Shown one piece after another: positions 3,264 through 18,759 of a stretch of DNA of 26,287 nucleotides. The stretch's first letter is position 1, and the number at the start of each line of letters is the position of its first letter. A program made the translations under genes and the position numbers. Source of the stretch: a virus; the IMG/VR virus record IMGVR_UViG_3300025687_000276, positions 1 through 26,287 of that record, one strand, 5' to 3'. Below the pieces are notes generated by a model, which was not told the origin of the DNA, ran no database searches, and saw nothing but the letters and a program-made list of their open reading frames with translations.

Positions 3264-3806
3264 ATGTACGTTAAAGTAACTGAGCAGATTGTTGATAAAT
3301 ACCCTTATACCGTCAATGACCTGAGAAAAGATAATCCACAAACAAGTTTTCCAAAAACACCTACAGATTCTTTATTAGAATCTTATGATGTTTTTAAAGT
3401 AGTTTATTTACAAAAACCTGTTTATGATTTAGATACTCAAAAATTAGTTCAAGATAGACAACCTTCATTAATTGATGGTGTTTGGTCTATTGGATATGCT
3501 ATAGTAAATTTAACACAAGAAGAAATTGATAATAATATTAAATTATTAACAAAAAAATATATGGATGCTGTACAAGAGCATTTAGATACAACAGCACAAG
3601 AAAGAAACTATGGTGGTATTCTTTCTTTGTGTACTTATGCAACATCACCTAATACTACATTTGCAACAGAAGGTCAAGCTGGTGTTGCATGGAGAGATGC
3701 TTGTTGGACATATGCTACTCAAGTTTTATCTGATGTTAATAATAATATTAGAACAATGCCCACTATTGAAGAATTAATCCAAGAATTACCAACAATTACT
3801 TGGTAA
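3264..3806 (+). CDS. Probable tail-fibre accessory/assembly protein
   Basis: A 180-aa AT-rich gene starting 9 bases after the preceding stop. The N-terminal half (YPYTVNDLRKDNPQTSFPK, then SYDVFKVV, then LIDGVWSIGYAIVNLTQEE) has the look of small proteins encoded just after tail fibre genes in many phages, some of which act as fibre chaperones or caps. The C-terminal half has a helical stretch (KKYMDAVQEHLDTTAQERNY) followed by GGILSLCTYATSP and GQAGVAWRDACWTYA, a segment I associate with phage proteins of this type. There is no transmembrane segment or enzyme motif. The function is inferred from position and general resemblance. Its low G+C returns to the phage norm, in contrast to the gene before it. 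Confidence 0.55.
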   Translation: MYVKVTEQIVDKYPYTVNDLRKDNPQTSFPKTPTDSLLESYDVFKVVYLQKPVYDLDTQKLVQDRQPSLIDGVWSIGYAIVNLTQEEIDNNIKLLTKKYMDAVQEHLDTTAQERNYGGILSLCTYATSPNTTFATEGQAGVAWRDACWTYATQVLSDVNNNIRTMPTIEELIQELPTITW

Positions 3807-3820
3807 TAGGAGACCGTATT

Positions 3821-4192
3821 ATGGGAAACCTTTCTAAACATTTTGACGCAAAAGAATTTAAATGTAAATGTGGTAAATGTGATTCTACAGGAGTAGTGAA
3901 TCCAGAGTTAATAGATGTGTTAGAAAATCTTCGTTCTGAAATACTTTGTCCAATACAAATAAATTCAGGACATCGCTGTATCAGACATAATAGAGCTGTA
4001 GGCGGTGTTCCCAATTCACAACACTTGCTAGGGAATGCTGCTGATATTGTTTCAAGAGACAAAACACCAGTAGAGTTGTACACCTTATTAGCTGTAATGT
4101 ATCCTGATAGTTTGTGTTTAAGATTATATCCTTCATTTGTACATGTTGATGTACGTCCTGAAAAACTAAGATGGGTGTGGTATAGTGTTTGA
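3821..4192 (+). CDS. Endolysin, peptidase M15A-like (zinc D-Ala-D-Ala type)
   Basis: A 123-aa protein with the M15A signature SGHR (49-52), SQHLLGNAADI (66-76) and FVHVDVR (106-112). Predicted zinc ligands are His68, Asp75 and His108. The N-terminus carries CKCGKC (15-20), a cysteine cluster often seen in phage M15A proteins. Members of this family cut the peptide cross-links of peptidoglycan. The frame is open upstream to a TTG at 3800, but ATG 3821 is chosen because AGGAG at 3808-3812 sits 8 bases before it. The gene overlaps the holin start by 8 bases, giving a compact endolysin-holin pair. No signal peptide is visible, so release would depend on the holin. A second, different M15 peptidase is encoded at 8031-8693 on the other strand. 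Confidence 0.85.
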   Translation: MGNLSKHFDAKEFKCKCGKCDSTGVVNPELIDVLENLRSEILCPIQINSGHRCIRHNRAVGGVPNSQHLLGNAADIVSRDKTPVELYTLLAVMYPDSLCLRLYPSFVHVDVRPEKLRWVWYSV

Positions 4193-4607
4193 TGTAATAA
4201 GTGCTGTAAAAGCTGGCAGCGAACTTGCTAATGGTATTATAGAAAGAATATGGCCAAATCCAGAAGAAGCTGACAAGAGGAAATTAGAGGTTCTTAAAAT
4301 AGAGCTAGAGTCTCACTTTAATATAATGTCTAAGCAATTAGAAATAAGTATTAAAGAAGCTGAGCATCCTTCACTATTTGTAGCAGGTGCTAGACCTTTT
4401 ATTCTTTGGATTTGTGCTTTTGGTTTAGCTTATGCTTCAATTTTAGAACCATTAGCAAGGTTTATTGCTGTTGTGTTTTTTGAATACGAAGGGGATTTTC
4501 CTCAAATAGATACAGACTTGACTTTACAAATACTACTAGGTATGCTAGGTCTTGCAGGTATGAGGAGTCATGATAAACGATTTAAAGTTGAAAGAAATAA
4601 ACTATGA
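4185..4607 (+). CDS. Holin, 3-TM phage holin family
   Basis: This 140-aa protein has an amphipathic N-terminal half (PNPEEADKRKLEVLKIELE) followed by hydrophobic segments at about 70-88 (ARPFILWICAFGLAYAS), 90-100 and 112-126 (LTLQILLGMLGLAGM). It ends in a charged tail beginning RSHDKRFK. The ARPFI-W pattern and the LLGMLGLAGMRS ending match my memory of the 3-TM phage holin family (Phage_holin_3_1). Holins oligomerise in the inner membrane and trigger lysis. The start is GTG 4185, overlapping the endolysin stop; no better ATG lies nearby and the ribosome site is weak, so translation is probably coupled. Its stop overlaps the next gene as ATGA. Confidence 0.85.
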   Translation: MFDVISAVKAGSELANGIIERIWPNPEEADKRKLEVLKIELESHFNIMSKQLEISIKEAEHPSLFVAGARPFILWICAFGLAYASILEPLARFIAVVFFEYEGDFPQIDTDLTLQILLGMLGLAGMRSHDKRFKVERNKL

Positions 4608-6307: not shown

Positions 6308-6688
6308 CTATTTTTTGGCTATTAAAAAGTTGTTAAGAGCGTTTCTATCGTAATCTTTGTTAAAGACTTTCAAGATAGTGCTTCCTATTACATGATCTGT
6401 TTCAAGGACCATGTCAGGTTCCAAGTATGCCAATGCAGACAGTATAAAAAAATTTCTATTTAAGACAGAATCAAACCTTTCAGTGAGGTCAATAAGCGTA
6501 TCACCGTCTAGCTGGAGTTCACTTATTAACAAGTGAACTATTTCTTTCTTGTTGTATTTTGCTAAAAAACAATCACCAACAAGAGATGGTAAACTATGAT
6601 CAGCTTGTTGCATATAATCATCTAAAGCTTTTATTTTATCATCTACGACAAAACCTTCAAACAACACTTCTAATATTTTTTCATTCAT
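6308..6688 (-). CDS. Hypothetical protein
   Basis: A 126-aa protein starting at ATG 6688, which overlaps the previous stop as ATGA. The frame runs on upstream to a TTG at 6712, but the overlap and lack of a ribosome site there favour 6688. It is predicted to be mostly helical (NEKILEVLFEGFVVDDKIKA, KKEIVHLLISELQ, LIDLTERFDSVLN), with no recognisable motif. It ends 10 bases before the GHKL-like gene, whose ribosome site overlaps its stop, so the two are likely cotranslated. Confidence 0.6.
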   Translation of the reverse strand: MNEKILEVLFEGFVVDDKIKALDDYMQQADHSLPSLVGDCFLAKYNKKEIVHLLISELQLDGDTLIDLTERFDSVLNRNFFILSALAYLEPDMVLETDHVIGSTILKVFNKDYDRNALNNFLIAKK

Positions 6689-6921
6689 ACTTTTACCAGT
6701 GTTTCTTCCCAATCATTATTAAAAAAGATAACAGAACCTATTTCAAAAAAGTCATTAGTCTTTTTTGGTAACCAATTTGAACCTTTTAACAAACAAGGTT
6801 CTTCTTTAAAACCCCATAAAATATTTTCTTTATCTATTGCTAAATAGTTAATCTGTTTTGGAATTAAAACCTCTTCACCTAAATAAATAACTGTTTTAAT
6901 ATAAGTATAATTTATTATCAT
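6685..6921 (-). CDS. Stand-alone copy of the domain fused to the second M15 peptidase
   Basis: A 78-aa protein. Residues ~10-78 align with the C-terminal ~70 residues of the M15 protein at 8031-8693: VIYLGEEVLIPKQINYLAID against VSYLGKIIKVPIFVKYIAVE, then WLPKKTNDFFEIG against WLSQEPNDFIKIG. Both end on the last turn of this domain. The function of the domain is unknown; in the longer protein it could be a cell-wall or protein-binding module, but that is only inferred from its fusion to a lysin-like domain. ATG 6921 has a strong ribosome site (AAGGAGCTACT) and lies just after the terminator at 6936-6967, so this gene may begin a separately transcribed segment. Confidence 0.65.
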   Translation of the reverse strand: MIINYTYIKTVIYLGEEVLIPKQINYLAIDKENILWGFKEEPCLLKGSNWLPKKTNDFFEIGSVIFFNNDWEETLVKV

Positions 6922-6932
6922 AGTAGCTCCTT

Positions 6933-6967
6933 AAAAAAGCCCTAGACTTTTTATCATCTAGGGCTTT
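6933..6967 (-). terminator. Leftward intrinsic terminator, copy 1 of a duplicated hairpin
   Basis: AAAGCCCTAGA (6936-6946) pairs with TCTAGGGCTTT (6957-6967) over 11 bp with a 10-base loop, CTTTTTATCA on the plus strand. Reading leftward, the stem ends in TTTTTT. It lies 5 bases after the stop of the 26-codon ORF at 6973-7053. A near-identical hairpin with the same loop lies at 9471-9504. Confidence 0.85.
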
Positions 6968-6972
6968 GTTGT

Positions 6973-7053
6973 TTAGTGTACAATACACATCATTCCTATT
7001 AAAGCTAAGTAAGACATTATAGCTATTAATAGGTATGTTATTACAAGTTTCAT
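6973..7053 (-). CDS. Predicted 26-aa single-span membrane micro-protein
   Basis: ATG 7053 overlaps the preceding gene's stop as ATGA. The ORF encodes 26 residues, nearly all hydrophobic (starting MKLVITYLLIAIMSYLALIG and ending MMCIVH), consistent with one transmembrane helix. Its TAA is 5 bases before the terminator stem, which is where the last gene of a transcript should end. The start overlap and the terminator placement are the main support. No function can be assigned. AT-rich DNA favours hydrophobic codons, so a chance ORF is possible. Confidence 0.5.
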   Translation of the reverse strand: MKLVITYLLIAIMSYLALIGMMCIVH

Positions 7054-7241
7054 TTTTCCTCTTCTTCAAAAACAAACTGGGTTTCTGGTTTTACTCTATA
7101 AGTATAGATAACCCAATCCCATAAAGGTTTTGGTTCATCTTTCCAAGGAGAGTTTAAAGCATTAAATTTCTTTTGAATTTTAGCCCCTTCTTCATAGGCT
7201 TTCATTACTTCGTAAGGTTTCATTACTTCATACGGTTTCAT
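7050..7241 (-). CDS. Small protein with triplicated N-terminal hexapeptide
   Basis: A 63-aa protein that starts with three tandem six-residue units, MKPYEV MKPYEV MKAYEE. Each unit supplies a possible start (ATG at 7241, 7223 and 7205). The units differ at synonymous positions (CCG TAT against CCT TAC). The rest has W..EPKPLWDWVIYTYRVKPE, a pattern I associate with small uncharacterised phage proteins. No ribosome site clearly distinguishes the three starts; the outermost ATG is given. It overlaps the following micro-protein by 4 bases. Confidence 0.55.
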   Translation of the reverse strand: MKPYEVMKPYEVMKAYEEGAKIQKKFNALNSPWKDEPKPLWDWVIYTYRVKPETQFVFEEEEK

Positions 7242-7247
7242 ACGATC

Positions 7248-7442
7248 TTATAAACAAATTGCATTTATTTTTGTGTTATCATCTTCAGCTGGTTGAAAAT
7301 AAGTGTCTGTCACTTCTCCTAACTCAGGGTCAATGACATCTTCCCACGTAGTTTCCAAGTCTTTTATAACTCTTATATCTAATGTAGATTTATCATTTTC
7401 GACCATTTTGTTTAAAAATGATAACAGTTCTCTTACAGTCAT
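7248..7442 (-). CDS. Hypothetical acidic small protein
   Basis: A 64-aa protein with an N-terminal helix (VRELLSFLNKMVENDKS) followed by an acidic, probably extended region (DVIDPELGEVTDTYFQPAED). ATG 7442 lies 2 bases past the previous stop, and the GAGGAG of that gene's last codons serves as the ribosome site, so the pair is coupled. The start resembles small phage proteins of the MTVRELL...L type. No function is known to me. Confidence 0.6.
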   Translation of the reverse strand: MTVRELLSFLNKMVENDKSTLDIRVIKDLETTWEDVIDPELGEVTDTYFQPAEDDNTKINAICL

Positions 7443-7444
7443 AT

Positions 7445-7921
7445 TTACTCCTCACCAAAAGCTCTAGCATTATTGTACAACACCAAGTCACCTCTAAGAA
7501 CGACTTTCCCACCTGCTCTGGCATTATCCATAACTTTAACATCATCAAGGATTTCTGCTTTACCAAAAACTTTAGCATTTCCTTTAATAACAGCATTATT
7601 TAAAACCTTAGCGGTTCCAAATACTGAAGCTCTTCCAAAAACTTTAGCACTATCCTTTATCCTTGCTCTCCCATACACTTTAGCGTGCTCTGCTATTATA
7701 GCATTTCCATAAACCCTACCGTGTTCATAGACTCTAGCTTTATCTATAACACAAGCATCATCATATATCCATGATTTTCCTGTTTGTGATAAGTTATGTT
7801 CACCATGAACAAAACCACCAAGATCACCTTCTAATACAGAAGAAAAATCTTTTAAGGCTTTTATTCTATACACACGCTTCCCTTCTAAAACAATATCTGT
7901 TAATATAAGTTCGTATTTCAT
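7445..7921 (-). CDS. Hexapeptide-repeat left-handed beta-helix protein
   Basis: A 158-aa protein. The first ~45 residues (RVYRIKALKDFSSVLEGDLG, then GFVHGEHNLSQTG) match the N-terminus of a phage/prophage family with hexapeptide repeats. From ~52 to 155 there are about 16 six-residue units with a small residue and an aliphatic one at fixed places (AKVYGR, ARIKDS, AKVFGR, ASVFGT, AKVLNN, AVIKGN, AKVFGK), which should coil into a left-handed beta helix. Such folds occur in acyltransferases and in structural proteins; no catalytic His typical of the transferases stands out, so a structural or binding role is more likely. ATG 7921 follows AAAGAGGG. Confidence 0.7.
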   Translation of the reverse strand: MKYELILTDIVLEGKRVYRIKALKDFSSVLEGDLGGFVHGEHNLSQTGKSWIYDDACVIDKARVYEHGRVYGNAIIAEHAKVYGRARIKDSAKVFGRASVFGTAKVLNNAVIKGNAKVFGKAEILDDVKVMDNARAGGKVVLRGDLVLYNNARAFGEE

Positions 7922-8002
7922 AAACCCTCTTTGTTAAGTAGTAGTTTTTAATCAAGCTTATTATTGTATTGATTAGAATTAATACTTTAAAAACTTAATC
8001 AT

Positions 8003-8024
8003 AAAAGCCCCTCCGAAGAAGGGC
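8003..8024 (-). terminator. Leftward intrinsic terminator after the second M15 peptidase gene
   Basis: Read leftward, GCCCTTC (from 8024) pairs with GAGGGGC (to 8007) around a UUCG tetraloop. This gives a 7-bp stem with one G-U pair, followed by TTTTAT. It begins 6 bases after the stop of the upstream gene. Confidence 0.8.
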
Positions 8025-8030
8025 ATCTTG

Positions 8031-8693
8031 TTAAACAGCTCTAAGAGACTTTGTATAATCTCCTTTAATATTTATTTCACCTATTTTAATAAAATCATTT
8101 GGTTCTTGAGACAACCATTCACCATTCACTAAGACTGGTTTTTGCCTATAACCTAATAACGAATCGACATTTTCATCAGGTTCTACTGCAATATATTTTA
8201 CAAAAATAGGAACCTTAATAATTTTTCCTAAATAGCTAACATTTTTTAAACATGTCTGCTTAAAAGACGCAATCTCCACTGTATCTCCTACTAGTAGTTC
8301 TTTTTTCAACTGAAAGTGCATTCCAACCGGCACATCCCAATAACCGCCCCAGTCAAAACCTACAGATTCAAAGATTTCAACTATTCTAGGTGATATTGAA
8401 GGTGTCGCACCTATTTGATTGGTTTTAGAGTTAACATCAAAAGCTAATCCCCACGAATGAATAGACATTGTGGCACTATTTCTAGAGGCTCTGATATTGA
8501 AACAACCATCCCATGTTTCGAAAGAAAGATTTGCTTCTTTCATCATTTCAAGACCTTTCTTAAAAGGTGTTTCCATTGCCTTATTCATATACACCTTTTT
8601 TGGCATGAACTTCTCATCAAAGGTGCTAAGTATTATATTGTTTTCATTTTCTGGCGGACCAAAAAGATTAAGACAATCTGATTCGTATAACAT
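8031..8693 (-). CDS. Second M15 (M15C-like) peptidase with a C-terminal accessory domain
   Basis: A 220-aa protein. Residues ~1-130 carry the M15C/VanY-type zinc motif: SIHSWGLAFD (77-86, ligands His79 and Asp86) and GMHFQL (124-129, ligand His126), with GFDWGGYWD between them. Members cleave peptidoglycan stem peptides, as in the T5 endolysin. After ~150 follows a domain (KYIAVEPDE, GYRQKPVLVNGEWLSQEPND, IKIG) that is also encoded alone at 6685-6921. ATG 8693 follows AAGGA. Being in the leftward accessory block rather than the lysis cassette, it may serve a different step (entry, superinfection control or a particle component), but its timing cannot be read from sequence. No signal peptide is seen. 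Confidence 0.75.
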   Translation of the reverse strand: MLYESDCLNLFGPPENENNIILSTFDEKFMPKKVYMNKAMETPFKKGLEMMKEANLSFETWDGCFNIRASRNSATMSIHSWGLAFDVNSKTNQIGATPSISPRIVEIFESVGFDWGGYWDVPVGMHFQLKKELLVGDTVEIASFKQTCLKNVSYLGKIIKVPIFVKYIAVEPDENVDSLLGYRQKPVLVNGEWLSQEPNDFIKIGEINIKGDYTKSLRAV

Positions 8694-8714: not shown

Positions 8715-8743
8715 ATTATAGATAGCTCACTATAGAGTTTGAA
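8715..8743 (-). promoter_or_regulatory. Possible sigma70-type leftward promoter
   Basis: Read leftward, TTCAAA (8743-8738) and TATAAT (8720-8715) are separated by 17 bases. The -10 is perfect and the -35 matches 4 of 6. It lies 22 bases upstream of the M15C-like gene start. Such matches are common in AT-rich DNA. Confidence 0.35.
8719..8738 (+). promoter_or_regulatory. Possible T7-type phage promoter pointing rightward
   Basis: CTCACTATAG at 8726-8735 equals the T7 promoter core from -9 to +1 and is followed by AG. Positions -17 to -10 match T7 poorly. It points against all nearby genes. The window encodes a T7-type RNA polymerase, but no other copy was found in the gaps between genes, so a chance match is possible. 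Confidence 0.3.
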
Positions 8744-9470: not shown

Positions 9471-9504
9471 AAAAAAGCCCCTAGACTTTTTATCATCTAG
9501 GGGC
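9471..9504 (-). terminator. Leftward intrinsic terminator, copy 2 of a duplicated hairpin
   Basis: GCCCCTAGA (9477-9485) pairs with TCTAGGGGC (9496-9504); the 10-base loop is identical to that of the hairpin at 6933-6967, and the leftward strand ends in TTTTTT. It follows the 230-aa gene. A second small inverted repeat (TTGAGA/TCTCAA) lies between them at 9507-9523. Confidence 0.85.
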
Positions 9505-12822: not shown

Positions 12823-14772
12823 TTATTTAATAGGACAAGCTCCACCTGCACATTCTTCTTCTTTTATTTCTTCAAAAGAATCAGTAATCTCTACAGGTTT
12901 TAATTGACTAACATAAGAATCGTATTTTTCTTTATCTACTACTTCTTGTGGTAAATAAGCATAACCAAGATCTTTTGCTGTCTTTGTGGGGTCATTCCTA
13001 AACAGAAAACTTACAGCTACGTAGCTATCCCAGTTATCCAGCAACCAGTCAACAATTTTAGGAACCTCTTCTACAGAATAACTTATAGTATTACTAACAT
13101 TCTGTTGACACCAGTTATTTTGTAACATTTTGTATCTTTCTAATTGATCAATAGCTGATTCAAGATTGACTTCCATTCCGTCAACAATATCAAACTCTAC
13201 ATCATCCCAAGATACAGGAAAAGTTACAATAACACCTGTGTTATCAAAAGGATTATCAAAAACTCTGTAATTAGCTTGTTTTAACAAAGGAACAATACTG
13301 TCATGTTTTGAAAAGTTTACATTGTTAAAAATATACCTTCCTAATGGCTTATGAACACCTTCTGTAGTATCCATTATCTTTGACAAAGTACCACTAGGTT
13401 TAATAGTGGTTACGTTTTTAGGTCTTTGTAAACCTAATTCATCGGCCATACTGTAAGCAGCTGTTGTAGCTTCTCTAGCTAATACAGAAAAATCATATGG
13501 CTCTAAGTCTGATCTTCTAGCTGTACCGGTAATACCTACACCGCATAATCTTAAGAACTCATTATTTAAATGCCACGATTCCTGTAAAATACCATCTTTT
13601 AAATTTACACAAGTTTGTCTATAATTAGCTCTTGCTGCTAAATATACTGCTCTAGAAAGATCAGCAGAGTTGCCTCTGAATTTACCAATATCTATTTCTG
13701 TTAAGTTACAGAACGACTTGTTACCTAATAATATCTCACCACACGGATTTAAGCCTTTAAACCATGGTGCTCTCTTTAAAGCAGCTTCACCATTAACAAA
13801 GCCAGGTTCTGATCCTCCTCCACTGATCATTATTTCAAACATTTCTTCTAGTTCACCTTTTGTAGGTTTTTTATAGAAGACCAAAGAGTTATTTGATTGA
13901 CAACGGTGTGCATTATCATGTAGCCAGAATTCTTTCTTAGCCAAAGCAAACTCTCGCCACTCAGGGTTAGACACAGGCATTAAACAAATTTCAGCTGATC
14001 TTCTAGAGGACAATATTGTCCCCATCCAGTTGCAGATGTCCAAAATATCCATACAAGATAATAAGGAGCCTGCTCTTTTGTTTAAGATTTTAGCAATAGC
14101 TAAATAAGCTTTACTAATACTCTCATCTCCAGATGAAATCCAACCATATCCTTTTAAACGCTCTCCTGCTGGTCGTATTTGGCTAAAATCCAATATTAAT
14201 CGTTTAGCGGGATACTTCCCTGCAAGTAACTTTCCTATTGATTTTGCCCAAGCAACAGCTGAGTCTCCTACAGAAAGTCTCCAAACTTTATTCAAAGGGT
14301 CAAAGCTCTCTGTATTGTATTCCCTGCCACCTTTTTCTTTTCTTGTTGATCTTACTACTTCTATTTTAGTAATGGGTTTCATAAAACCATTTAGGGTTCC
14401 TCTTACTGGTGTAAAACCTACACCACAACCCTGTAGGAGTAACCATAAAACATCTACCATATCGTAGACCGTTTCAACATTAGTGAAAGAACAGTTAAAC
14501 TGACTGGCTTCATTCTTTTTAGCTACTTCTGTACCGCCTAGCCATAAAGTTCTACCTGAGACTGACATCTTTCGTTCAATCATCAGTTCAGAAAGTTCTA
14601 TTAACTCTTCAGTTTGACTTTCAGACAAAGGTTTTCCTTGAGCTCTTTCCCATAGCCATCTTTGATGGGACATTACTCTATTTACTGTTTCTTCCCAAGA
14701 CTCAAAAGAGCCATCTTCTTTTGGTCTGTTGTAAGATCGTCTTGTTATGATTTTTGCTCTTGTACTAGTCAT
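12823..14772 (-). CDS. nrdJ: Adenosylcobalamin-dependent (class II) ribonucleoside-triphosphate reductase
   Basis: A 649-aa monomeric class II enzyme that reduces ribonucleotides to deoxyribonucleotides using vitamin B12. Redox cysteines fit the Lactobacillus leichmannii enzyme: Cys94 in FNCSF, thiyl-radical Cys344 in NPCGEI, and Cys355 exactly 11 residues later, as in C408/C419. The tail ECAGGACPIK carries the swinging pair Cys641 and Cys646, five apart as in C731/C736. It is shorter than the 739-residue reference. ATG 14772 overlaps the helicase stop as ATGA, so the two are translationally coupled and dNTP supply is tied to replication. Activity would need host or environmental cobalamin. 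No phage thioredoxin gene is seen in the window. Confidence 0.93.
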   Translation of the reverse strand: MTSTRAKIITRRSYNRPKEDGSFESWEETVNRVMSHQRWLWERAQGKPLSESQTEELIELSELMIERKMSVSGRTLWLGGTEVAKKNEASQFNCSFTNVETVYDMVDVLWLLLQGCGVGFTPVRGTLNGFMKPITKIEVVRSTRKEKGGREYNTESFDPLNKVWRLSVGDSAVAWAKSIGKLLAGKYPAKRLILDFSQIRPAGERLKGYGWISSGDESISKAYLAIAKILNKRAGSLLSCMDILDICNWMGTILSSRRSAEICLMPVSNPEWREFALAKKEFWLHDNAHRCQSNNSLVFYKKPTKGELEEMFEIMISGGGSEPGFVNGEAALKRAPWFKGLNPCGEILLGNKSFCNLTEIDIGKFRGNSADLSRAVYLAARANYRQTCVNLKDGILQESWHLNNEFLRLCGVGITGTARRSDLEPYDFSVLAREATTAAYSMADELGLQRPKNVTTIKPSGTLSKIMDTTEGVHKPLGRYIFNNVNFSKHDSIVPLLKQANYRVFDNPFDNTGVIVTFPVSWDDVEFDIVDGMEVNLESAIDQLERYKMLQNNWCQQNVSNTISYSVEEVPKIVDWLLDNWDSYVAVSFLFRNDPTKTAKDLGYAYLPQEVVDKEKYDSYVSQLKPVEITDSFEEIKEEECAGGACPIK

Positions 14773-17279
14773 AATACCTCGAATACGTCCACTCTACTGC
14801 AAGTTAATCTACCAGTCTGATGATTGTAAATTGTACCATCTACTGGACCTGTTAAGCCTGTATACCTGCTTTTTAATACAGACATTTTTGTTTCATCTCT
14901 TTCTTTGTCACTACTACTGCTTAAGTTTCTAGCAAAAGCAATAACATCAAAAGAAACTTGTTTAATACTACCACTACCTTTAATATCGTCTAACGTAGGA
15001 AGATGACCTTCCTCAAAGGAAGATACTCCTTGTTTTGTTTTTCGAAGATGTGATACTAATCCTATCCATACTTCATGTCTTTTAACAAACCTCAAAAGCT
15101 CATTCATCATCCTATCTACTGCTTCGTTACCTGAAGCACCATCAATCCCTTCAGATGTTAGCATTGTTATATGGTCGATAATGATATATTTACAACCACT
15201 TAATGCCATGTATTCTAAATTATCAATTATACTTTCATCTTTAATTGCTCCTTGATGATCTAAGATCAACAGTCTGTCATCTTTAAAAACTTTATCAAAA
15301 CCAACTTTCAATTCTGATAGAGGTATTTCTGTCTCTGATGGATTTTTGTTAATCATCATTCCAGCTAACTTTCTTGCAGAATCTGCAGGTGTTTCTTCAA
15401 AAGCAGCTAGTCCTACTTTATCAGTAGTAGTTTCTAATAAATGTAAGATTATCTCTCTCATTGTAGTAGACTTCCCACTGTTATGTGTTACAATATGATT
15501 TCCTAACACATAACGATTATCACCATCAACTGCAAAACCATTATACTTACTAATATCTAGAGGTATAACTTCTATTCCAGATCTTAAAAGATCTTTTTTA
15601 GAAGTCACATTCTTAGGTGAGAACCTTGTTGTTGGTATTGCAGATAAGTTTTCACCAGAAACTCTTATGTACATTGGTTTTTCTATGCTTGTCTTTGCTC
15701 TGAAGCCTAGAGAGTTTGCTAATATTTTTATACCATTTGCTAATGCCTCTGTTTTTACATAAATTTTGAAAAAAGATTTATTAGCGAAAACACCACTAGC
15801 ATCTATGAAACCAGCTAATAGCTCTAACCTGTCATCTATCGATGATGCGAGATAGATTTCAGGTATTCTTTTAAGAGGATGAAAAATCATTTTTTCTATA
15901 ATTTCCCTGTCTTTCCTAAACTCTCCACTAAGCCTAGCTTCAAGGTTTTCATTAACATATCCAATTTTATTTAACTTGTCACCAATACTGTAACTAGTAT
16001 TATCATACTTCCTTACTTCTGCTAGATACAAAGCTAATGTATATGGATGAATTAATAAAGATTTTTCAGGATATTCTAGACAATTTGTTTTAAAAGCTTT
16101 TAACCTCCTTCTAGATCTTGGTGGCAAGTTTAAAAAGTCTTTGACAGAAATATCAACTACCCTGTTTGTTTTGTCAGATGTTATTAGTGATAACACATGT
16201 GATTCATTACAAACAAATGAAGAGTCTTCTGTTAGTTTGATTTGGTACATCCTTTCTGTACCACTAAACAACTTCAAAACATTTCTGGGTTTGTTATCAG
16301 CACCCATCAAAACATCACCAATAACAACATCTCTAGCTCTTTTAGTATAACCATCAAACATAAGAACTTCAGTGTCTGGGTGTAAACATCCAGTACCTGA
16401 TATAAACAAAGCAATTTCATTAAACCTCATCCCTTTTAGCTTAGAATTTAAACCATCTAAACAAGGAGGATAAGGTATTGAAGGCATACTATTATATTTT
16501 ACAAGAGCTTCCCAAATATCTTCTGTACTTATTATACCAGACGGTTTATATAAAGAAGCATCCCATATCGCTGTTGTTAATTCTTTAGATCCTTTCTTTA
16601 AAAGAATATCACAAGCGTCTTTACAATCTGAAGGGTATTTGACAACTTTTGCTTTATCTATCCCTACTATTTTTAACAACTTACTGGTAGCTACTTTACC
16701 AGCTTCGTCATTATCCATCATTATAACAACTTCACCAAAAGACCTAAGCCAGTCTCTAGCTTCTAAGACATCTTTTGTTGCAGTAGCTGAAGACATTGCT
16801 ACTACAGGATATATCTTATCATACCTGTCTTTTGAAGCTTTGGCTACAGCAAGAGCATCAAGTTCACCCTCACAGATTACAACTCTTTTACCTCCTTCTG
16901 GAAATTTATTCATTCCAAACAAACCACCAGCTTCTCCTATCCAAGAGAACCTCTTAGGAAGCTGACGACGTTTAAAACCGTTTGGGTATGGATAATAATG
17001 CGCTACTATTGATCTGTTATCATCATACGAAACACGGACATCAAAGAAATAACAGATGTCTTTAGGTATTTTCCTCTCTTCAAAACCTCTAACATCATAG
17101 GATAAGACTTCTTGTATTGTTTCCGTATTACACTTGTCCATTATAGACTTCTTTGGTTTATTATTAGAACCGGTGTTACAGCTATAACACCAGCTCCCGT
17201 CTTCGTATATTGTAACAGCATCAGACGATCCACACTTAGTGCAAGGTTGGTGAGTTTTTATTGCTTTTCTTCTTTCCAT
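14769..17279 (-). CDS. Primase-helicase (T7 gp4-like) precursor containing an intein
   Basis: An 836-aa precursor. Residues 13-34 hold a primase zinc finger (CTKC...CYSC); a Toprim domain follows (ICEGELDALAV at 135-145, MMDNDEAGK at 187-195). The RecA-like helicase has its P-loop split by an intein: ISGTG (293-297) joins SGKSTT (601-606) after splicing. Walker B is YIIIDHI (698-704), the likely catalytic Glu is in AFEET (626-630), and SHLRK (743-747) and KSRYTGLTG (803-811) match later helicase motifs. Without residues 298-600 the mature enzyme is 533 aa, close to T7 gp4 (566). It unwinds the fork and makes primers. ATG 17279 lies inside the end of the membrane-protein gene and has no good ribosome site. 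Confidence 0.92.
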   Translation of the reverse strand: MERRKAIKTHQPCTKCGSSDAVTIYEDGSWCYSCNTGSNNKPKKSIMDKCNTETIQEVLSYDVRGFEERKIPKDICYFFDVRVSYDDNRSIVAHYYPYPNGFKRRQLPKRFSWIGEAGGLFGMNKFPEGGKRVVICEGELDALAVAKASKDRYDKIYPVVAMSSATATKDVLEARDWLRSFGEVVIMMDNDEAGKVATSKLLKIVGIDKAKVVKYPSDCKDACDILLKKGSKELTTAIWDASLYKPSGIISTEDIWEALVKYNSMPSIPYPPCLDGLNSKLKGMRFNEIALFISGTGCLHPDTEVLMFDGYTKRARDVVIGDVLMGADNKPRNVLKLFSGTERMYQIKLTEDSSFVCNESHVLSLITSDKTNRVVDISVKDFLNLPPRSRRRLKAFKTNCLEYPEKSLLIHPYTLALYLAEVRKYDNTSYSIGDKLNKIGYVNENLEARLSGEFRKDREIIEKMIFHPLKRIPEIYLASSIDDRLELLAGFIDASGVFANKSFFKIYVKTEALANGIKILANSLGFRAKTSIEKPMYIRVSGENLSAIPTTRFSPKNVTSKKDLLRSGIEVIPLDISKYNGFAVDGDNRYVLGNHIVTHNSGKSTTMREIILHLLETTTDKVGLAAFEETPADSARKLAGMMINKNPSETEIPLSELKVGFDKVFKDDRLLILDHQGAIKDESIIDNLEYMALSGCKYIIIDHITMLTSEGIDGASGNEAVDRMMNELLRFVKRHEVWIGLVSHLRKTKQGVSSFEEGHLPTLDDIKGSGSIKQVSFDVIAFARNLSSSSDKERDETKMSVLKSRYTGLTGPVDGTIYNHQTGRLTCSRVDVFEVL
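15480..16388 (-). mobile_element. Intein with LAGLIDADG-type homing endonuclease, in the helicase P-loop
   Basis: Residues 298-600 of the helicase precursor (303 aa). It starts with Cys (CLHPDTEVLMFDG, block A), has NESH at 358-361 (block B His), and ends YVLGNHIVTHN followed by Ser, which is the standard His-Asn/+1 Ser junction. The endonuclease region has HPYTLALYLAEV (411-422, first LAGLIDADG helix, acid at Glu421) and LAGFIDASG (488-496). In the second helix the usual catalytic acid is Ser495, so nuclease activity is doubtful while splicing residues are intact. Its codon use matches the phage, which suggests long residence. Confidence 0.92.
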
Positions 17280-17538
17280 TGTCTATGAAACCCGCTGCTG
17301 TTATTAATATTAATATTAACGTTTCTGTGCTATACGGTACAGTGTATGCAATGTAAAAACCATAACATAGAAATAAAAATATTACAAACGCTATTAGCGG
17401 TTTTGATAGGCTGTACATTTGTGCTATCATTCCTAAAGCAAACACCACTAGGATTATTTCAGTCAGACCTACATATGAAGAAGTTAACGCGAGCCCTATG
17501 GCCATTACTGCAAAAATCGTAAAAGTTATATTATACAT
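17236..17538 (-). CDS. Small membrane protein
   Basis: A 100-aa protein made largely of hydrophobic segments at about 2-20, 26-40, 46-66 and 71-84, ending in a basic tail (DNGKKKSNKNSPTLH). It is predicted to be an inner-membrane protein with three or four spans. No family is recognised. It overlaps the helicase start by 44 bases and the preceding nuclease stop by 8, so it is embedded in the replication operon. A role in host takeover or as an additional holin-like protein would be speculation. Confidence 0.6.
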   Translation of the reverse strand: MYNITFTIFAVMAIGLALTSSYVGLTEIILVVFALGMIAQMYSLSKPLIAFVIFLFLCYGFYIAYTVPYSTETLILILITAAGFIDNGKKKSNKNSPTLH

Positions 17539-18001
17539 TTATGATACCTTTTAATCTTTCTTTATGACGGTTAGTAATTGTTTCTTTAGATCTCCACGAG
17601 ACCTTATTTATAAGTCTATTATATGATCTATTGTTTGTAGGTGTTTCTACGTGACAAAGACTCCAAGTTTCTGCCCAAGAAAGACCGCCTAATGTTTTAT
17701 ATTGTTCTAAAACAACAAACAAAAAATCAGCCTTTTCCAGCTCTTTGATCTCTTCGGATAAACTCTTACTAGATGAAATATACCATCTCCAATTACTTTC
17801 TTTTCCTTTTGTAAGTTTTCCTTTACTCCTATAAGTCTTTTTCCCTATATAAAACTTATCGTCTTTTGTATTGACAATAGCATATACAAAACCAACATAT
17901 TCTTTTCCTCCTAATGGTTCAGGAAAATACCAATGACCATTGCCTTCATAGTCTTTACTATCAACCCTACTATTCTTTTTCCCTTCTAGTGAAATTCCCA
18001 T
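17531..18001 (-). CDS. GIY-YIG-like endonuclease
   Basis: A 156-aa protein starting MGISLEGKK at ATG 18001, just after GGAGGT; the longer frame opens with a TTG and is rejected. The core GFVYAIVNTKDDKFYIGKKT resembles the GIY-YIG pattern (here FVY...FYIGKK). It is followed by a basic insert, NWRWYISSSKSLSEEI, and a helix with WAETWSL that may supply the metal-binding Glu. Related phage proteins are annotated as homing or recombination endonucleases. The gene sits between exonuclease and helicase, and no T7-type endonuclease I is seen in the window, so it may cut branched DNA. That role is inferred from context only. Confidence 0.6.
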   Translation of the reverse strand: MGISLEGKKNSRVDSKDYEGNGHWYFPEPLGGKEYVGFVYAIVNTKDDKFYIGKKTYRSKGKLTKGKESNWRWYISSSKSLSEEIKELEKADFLFVVLEQYKTLGGLSWAETWSLCHVETPTNNRSYNRLINKVSWRSKETITNRHKERLKGIINV

Positions 18002-18759
18002 ATTACCTCCATAATACTCCAATTTTTACAGCAAAAATAATCATCAAAACTTTTTTGCAAATGTATCAATTTCCCTGTTAATAGCAAAGCATCTAAGAAA
18101 TGATCTTTACCAAAATGATTAAGATATGCAATAGCTACAACTTCTTGCATTTCTTCCTCATGTTTGCAATTTTCCAACATCTTCCTAGCCCTAACATCAC
18201 CTACTTTAGGAAGTCCTTGGATGTTATCTGTCGGGTCTCCTTTCAACAATTGTTCGTAATAGAATCTGATAGCTTGTTCTTTTTCAACAAACTCTATCTC
18301 TTTCTTTTTTATATTATAATGTGCTCCTTCTATACACTTTAAGTCTTTATCTATTGAACAGACAATAAAAGGATCTTTAGCTTCTAGTGCCCAAATCCTA
18401 ATTAAGTCGTCAGCTTCTCTTCCATGAGCAGGTACAGCTCCTTCTAAAATAGCCGTTTCTCTTAGTCTAGGGACAAATAAAGAAGCAACTGTTTGCCTTT
18501 TATGTCTGTTTGCTTTATACTCAGGATAAACATCTTCTCTGAAGTTTCCTTCACCTTTAACAGCAATCAAAGTCTCTGTAGCAAAGACTTGATCTTCAAT
18601 TTCTGAAATTATCTTCTTAAAAGCCTGCCAAGCTTTTTCAAAGTACAGTTCCAGCTCGTTTTCAGTAAAATCTTCGGGGGTTGACTTCCATGTAATCCCC
18701 AAGTTCTCATTAGAACAAGCTAGATAGCAAACAACATCACCATCTATTAAAGCAATCAC
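17986..18759 (-). CDS. 5'-3' exonuclease (T7 gp6-like, FEN family)
   Basis: A 257-aa protein with the flap-nuclease acidic sites: Asp6 and Asp8 (LIDGD), YPEYKANR (78-85), READDLI (114-120), SIDKDL (135-140) and KGDPTDNIQGLPKVG (173-187), the last leading into a helix-three-turn-helix that binds DNA. It removes RNA primers and resects 5' ends for recombination and host DNA breakdown. The start is GTG 18759, directly after the previous TAA, with GAGGAG about 8 bases upstream. It overlaps the GIY-YIG-like gene by 16 bases. Confidence 0.9.
   Translation of the reverse strand: MIALIDGDVVCYLACSNENLGITWKSTPEDFTENELELYFEKAWQAFKKIISEIEDQVFATETLIAVKGEGNFREDVYPEYKANRHKRQTVASLFVPRLRETAILEGAVPAHGREADDLIRIWALEAKDPFIVCSIDKDLKCIEGAHYNIKKKEIEFVEKEQAIRFYYEQLLKGDPTDNIQGLPKVGDVRARKMLENCKHEEEMQEVVAIAYLNHFGKDHFLDALLLTGKLIHLQKSFDDYFCCKNWSIMEVIWEFH

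Follow-up and report, generated by a model that had tools for sequence, protein, structure and literature searches.

A widespread small phage domain, free and fused to an M15 endolysin-family protein with valine at the catalytic aspartate position

Why should the same small domain occur twice within a short stretch of a phage genome, once as a protein of its own and once as the tail of a presumed cell wall peptidase? The window considered here (the entire IMG/VR record IMGVR_UViG_3300025687_000276, 26,287 bases) is of the tailed-phage type, and its minus strand encodes a T7-type RNA polymerase, whose best-ranked named-phage match is DSS3_VP1 (35%), a DNA polymerase A, a Toprim/DnaB-type primase-helicase and a ribonucleotide reductase. 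Two genes on that strand raise the question, namely those of P0001, a protein of 78 amino acids (6685-6921), and P0002, an M15 endolysin-family protein of 220 amino acids (8031-8693). They are separated by 1,109 bases, in agreement with the 1.1 kb or so given in an initial annotation of this DNA.

The surroundings of the two genes have some features of their own. Between them lies a hexapeptide/beta-solenoid-like protein (7445-7921, minus strand), which matches phrog_5070 and has Pfam matches below the cut-off, and three 18-base direct repeats (7190-7243) at the start of a 63-aa open reading frame give a repeated MKPYEV-like peptide. The primase-helicase (14769-17279, minus strand) is interrupted by an intein that matches Hint and homing-endonuclease families, an insert of about 300 aa that is missing from relatives L108, L109, L111 and L113, and a SegE-like GIY-YIG endonuclease is encoded at 17531-18022 (minus strand). 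PADLOC had no match for the seven window proteins tested.

One domain in two settings

P0001 and the C-terminal region of P0002 are certainly homologous. Residues 6-78 of the former align by BLASTP to residues 147-220 of the latter (8034-8255, minus strand) with 27 identities over 76 positions (36%, E 5e-11), and the score of their local alignment (112) was never reached when the P0002 tail was shuffled 5000 times (maximum 54). The initial proposal that the 78-aa protein and residues ~150-220 of P0002 are one domain is therefore upheld, and it also stands up to profile comparison, as two profiles of phage proteins built without the window sequences recover the P0002 tail (alignment A4, E 1.6e-7; A2, E 3.3e-6). 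Likewise, phrog_1972 matches both copies (E 3.3e-15 for P0001 and 4.5e-8 for P0002), and so does phrog_11307 (E 4.6e-6 and 4.4e-4, respectively). A domain profile scan of the window finds these two copies and no other.

The predicted structures agree with this. AlphaFold models P0001 with a pLDDT of 86.0 and a pTM of 0.75, and the fused copy alone with 85.9 and 0.77, the two models not being independent because most rows are common to their input alignments, each of which also includes the other window copy. At E≤0.001 the model of the fused copy has ten matches in BFVD, all ten of them among the 26 of the free-copy model; it is by these shared matches, rather than by direct superposition of the models, that the common predicted fold is judged.

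Distribution of the domain and origin of the window copies

The domain (PHROGs 1972/11307) is uncharacterised and is not private to this locus, being widespread in phages. A tblastn search at E≤1 reaches 105 phage records with P0001 as query and 534 with L131, a relative of more central position, 183 of these 534 covering 80% of the query. A domain model was built from 15 copies, including the two of the window, and applied to the window, to L003 (an M15 relative) and to the full records of 18 phages out of 19 retrieved on account of tblastn matches; it detects the domain in 17 of the 18 phage records. Thirteen of these 17 phages supplied a row of the model, so that their first copy is found by construction and only further copies are new. 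At least two copies are present in nine of the 17, and 27 of the 32 phage copies lie in open frames no longer than 126 aa, measured stop to stop. The search for other carriers proposed at the outset thus leads mostly to small free proteins. The five longer copies are in Shigella phage vB_SdyM_006 (three), phAPEC8 (one, annotated with 151 aa) and Acinetobacter phage Ac42 (one); the Shigella phage carries the domain in four paralogues in a row, of which three are long and one is free (L010:349-2264). Three shorter copies have an N-terminal Zn-ribbon-like stretch, of which one was scanned and gave a Pfam match below the cut-off.

By sequence both window copies match the two PHROG families significantly, and their predicted fold recurs in BFVD among phage proteins that are free or longer. 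The relatives encountered stand alone or follow an N-terminal part that is Zn-ribbon-like or MIB_HERC2-like (in both cases with Pfam matches under the curated threshold; one such relative is named DUF4314), whereas in P0002 the domain is joined to a peptidase. The fold of the phrog_1972-type domain is predicted as mostly beta. P0001 matches no Pfam or NCBIfam family at E≤1, its model matches no PDB chain at E≤0.001, and VIA-align returned low-Z rows only (best Z 2.4 and 3.1, including kinases and a viral matrix protein), which were taken as no match. SUKH_6 matched a relative weakly (E 0.12). Dhakavirus tblastn matches by an ‘endonuclease’ gene were discarded too, as the overlap with that gene in phage dhaeg is of 2 bases; at E≤1 the domain model finds nothing in either Dhakavirus stretch, nor across the whole dhaeg record. 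None of 14 control genomes is positive for phrog_1972, and viral contigs searched with P0001 and P0002 singly gave no relatives. Genome contigs searched with two domain alignments gave none either, the sequence patterns used being narrow, so that bacterial absence does not follow. Literature searches on phrog_1972, on DUF4314 with phage and on GAP32_356 found no paper.

How did the domain come to be present twice? The initial annotation offered duplication or fusion, and of these fusion is clear. Two scans, overlapping in part, supplied the M15 relatives, with 115 loci in one and 558 in the other, of which the 80 best were kept each time. At E≤1 the domain is found in none of either 80, so that, as far as sampled, the fusion is particular to the window phage. 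In tblastn P0002 matches 242 records, none of them covering 80% of it, and its matches in 14 plasmid records involve the M15 part only. A local duplication in the window is possible. The top partner of the fused copy among 35 copies is P0001 (score 112; the next scores 98), and P0001 has its own top partners in phages GAP32 and Carvaje (118 each) and ECP2304 (115), ahead of the fused copy (112). In a tree of 34 copies neither window copy has a supported placement, the fused one is the longest branch, and grouping the two is not rejected (p-AU 0.246).

The same results bear on the suggestion that the free copy is an inhibitor, targeting subunit or decoy acting on the fused protein. The two copies do sit in one genome 1.1 kb apart, the fused one scores best with the free one, and free and longer copies also adjoin in Shigella phage vB_SdyM_006. 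Against this, P0001 has matches in 105 phage records and 80% of P0002 in none, and P0001's closest partners are in other phages. Co-occurrence aside, such a partnership finds no support, and we consider it highly improbable.

The M15 part of P0002

Residues 1-132 of P0002 (8298-8693, minus strand) match Pfam M15_4 (PF13539, E 1.1e-12), and this match together with the zinc ligands H79, D86 and H126 places them in the M15 (LAS) metallopeptidase fold. Endolysin PHROGs 17001 and 2649 are matched by all 22 members of alignment A9, P0002 included. With these families and the M15C L-Ala-D-Glu peptidases (2vo9, ChiX 5opz and EndoT5) P0002 has in common the motifs SxHxxGxAxD and GGxW...GMHF, the zinc ligands and the Trp (W119). 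Unlike them, it has Val in place of the catalytic Asp, a C-terminal extension of about 90 aa and no adjoining holin. A relative with Tyr for the first zinc His and the Asp kept was observed at L165:1333-1917.

The Val in question (V123, codon GTT at 8327-8325, minus strand) precedes the last zinc His by three residues. Of 161 relative loci (both scan sets plus L003), 158 were matched by a motif search and yielded 102 distinct proteins, the three non-matching loci being left uncounted. All 102 have Asp at this position and the GGxW-type Trp, and all end at most 30 aa past MHFQ; P0002 runs for 93 aa past MHF. Across 58 unique relatives, 61 columns reach a conservation of 90% or more; P0002 deviates at 23 of them (three being gaps) and the next worst sequence at 11, a divergence that may be overstated because the relatives were picked, from best-80 lists, by patterns inside the conserved motifs; relatives that are closer or equally divergent may be missing from those sets. 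The aligned solved enzymes 2vo9, which we take to be Ply500, and 5opz (ChiX) also have Asp at the V123 position.

Replacement of this residue is informative in two of the enzymes. ChiX loses its activity through D120A (PMC5778951), and so does EndoT5 through D130A, although this mutant still competes for substrate (PMC10487532). The residue lost in EndoT5 D130A is the one naturally lost in P0002; the inactivity and the substrate binding are those of the laboratory mutant. On such grounds P0002 is likely to have lost catalysis, and the ‘fused lysin’ of the initial annotation stands as regards the fusion to an M15 endolysin-family part and becomes doubtful as regards the lysin, since that part is without the catalytic Asp of its family. 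Two considerations temper this. GTT differs by one base from an Asp codon and comes from a single metagenomic sequence, so that V123 could stem from an error in the consensus or from a rare variant (a single near-identical contig was found, L107, which spans only about 13.8-18.9 kb). In addition, D120, three residues from V123, might replace the missing Asp.

Could P0002 nevertheless be an active modular lysin, with an M15 part that still cleaves peptidoglycan and a C-terminal domain that serves for targeting? It does keep the zinc ligands, the conserved Trp and many invariant residues, and C-terminal binding domains are usual in lysins of phages of Gram-positive bacteria (PMC10487532). What speaks against it is the Val at a position that Asp occupies in all 102 distinct relatives, the inactivating effect of Ala at the same position in ChiX (PMC5778951) and EndoT5 (PMC10487532), the distance of the gene from the holin, and the company the domain keeps elsewhere, where it is on uncharacterised phage proteins (none of six longer ones scanned in Pfam matched a peptidoglycan hydrolase). 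An active lysin is, then, unlikely.

Genomic setting and possible roles

The window has a second M15 gene (3800-4192, plus strand), which matches Peptidase_M15_3 in Pfam and the phrog_894 endolysin family and is likely to be the working endolysin; a GTA_holin_3TM holin (4185-4607, plus strand) adjoins it. P0002 is apart from this pair, in the minus-strand block of the RNA polymerase, DNA polymerase and primase-helicase. Its location suits a non-lysis role only weakly, because several M15 relatives (L003, L033) are also outside an obvious lysis cassette. Neighbours were listed for ten M15 relatives, and ten neighbours from eight of these were scanned in PHROGs. A holin is directly upstream of L046 and L102; L068 has a tail fibre protein and L033 a dCMP deaminase among the scanned neighbours; a portal gene is 2 kb away from L025; and L003 sits among non-structural genes. 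The same scan gives no family for the neighbours from L065, L059 and L092, and for that of L044 it gives only families without an assigned function. Of 79 relative loci read, 26 have a directly adjacent open reading frame with a membrane span, as predicted by a simple hydropathy rule.

A terminator-like hairpin found by the terminator scan immediately 3′ of P0002 (8007-8024, minus strand), together with a hairpin repeat immediately before P0001 (6933-6963, minus strand), suggests that the two genes may be transcribed apart. The latter hairpin, absent from the list of the terminator scan, is 94% like another at 9472-9502, the two being near-identical 31-base repeats at two gene borders, of which the second is terminator-like on the minus strand. 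Putative promoters were rejected, since a T7-promoter-like string (8726-8737) is not above chance and the sigma-70-like sites (18, against a shuffle mean of 22.0) are not above shuffles.

Terminator-like hairpins between the two genes would also fit an absence of any functional link, i.e., an accidental fusion between a drifting lysin gene and a mobile accessory domain, with the free copy functionally unrelated. The domain is often multi-copy, the M15 part of P0002 is the most divergent of its set, and the searches that pick up P0002 and the domain in the window find neither of them in 12 related-phage records (several of them fragments). On the other side, the open reading frame of 220 codons is intact and retains the zinc ligands and the domain motifs, which argues against simple decay. 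An accident of this kind is possible, if rather doubtful.

The reading we prefer, at a probability of roughly one half, is that a phrog_1972-type domain occurs here both free, as an accessory protein, and fused to a retired, non-hydrolytic M15 protein of the endolysin family that has taken on a new role. Given the zinc ligands and Trp kept, the change from Asp to Val and the inactive mutants, P0002 would be expected to fold, to bind zinc and not to hydrolyze, and it may bind peptidoglycan peptides. The M15 part would have ceased to hydrolyze peptidoglycan whilst retaining zinc binding and perhaps binding of stem peptides, and the domain could be an interaction module that gives the retired lysin its new role, being produced with the replication genes and separately from lysis. 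The free copy would belong to the same accessory family and, more tentatively, might bind the same partner. In a bolder version, P0002 would be a natural pseudo-endolysin of the phage, derived from a lysin but without catalysis and produced with the replication genes. By binding peptidoglycan peptides it would either restrain the window's working M15 endolysin or label the cell wall for whatever partner the small domain brings in, and the free copy would modulate that partner too; this is speculative and decidedly unlikely.

Whichever of these holds, the window gives one concrete protein in which a widespread uncharacterised domain, with a predicted fold that has no clear match among solved structures, can be probed against a well-understood enzyme scaffold. 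If the M15 part is indeed dead but still binding, phages can recycle their lysis enzymes as regulators.
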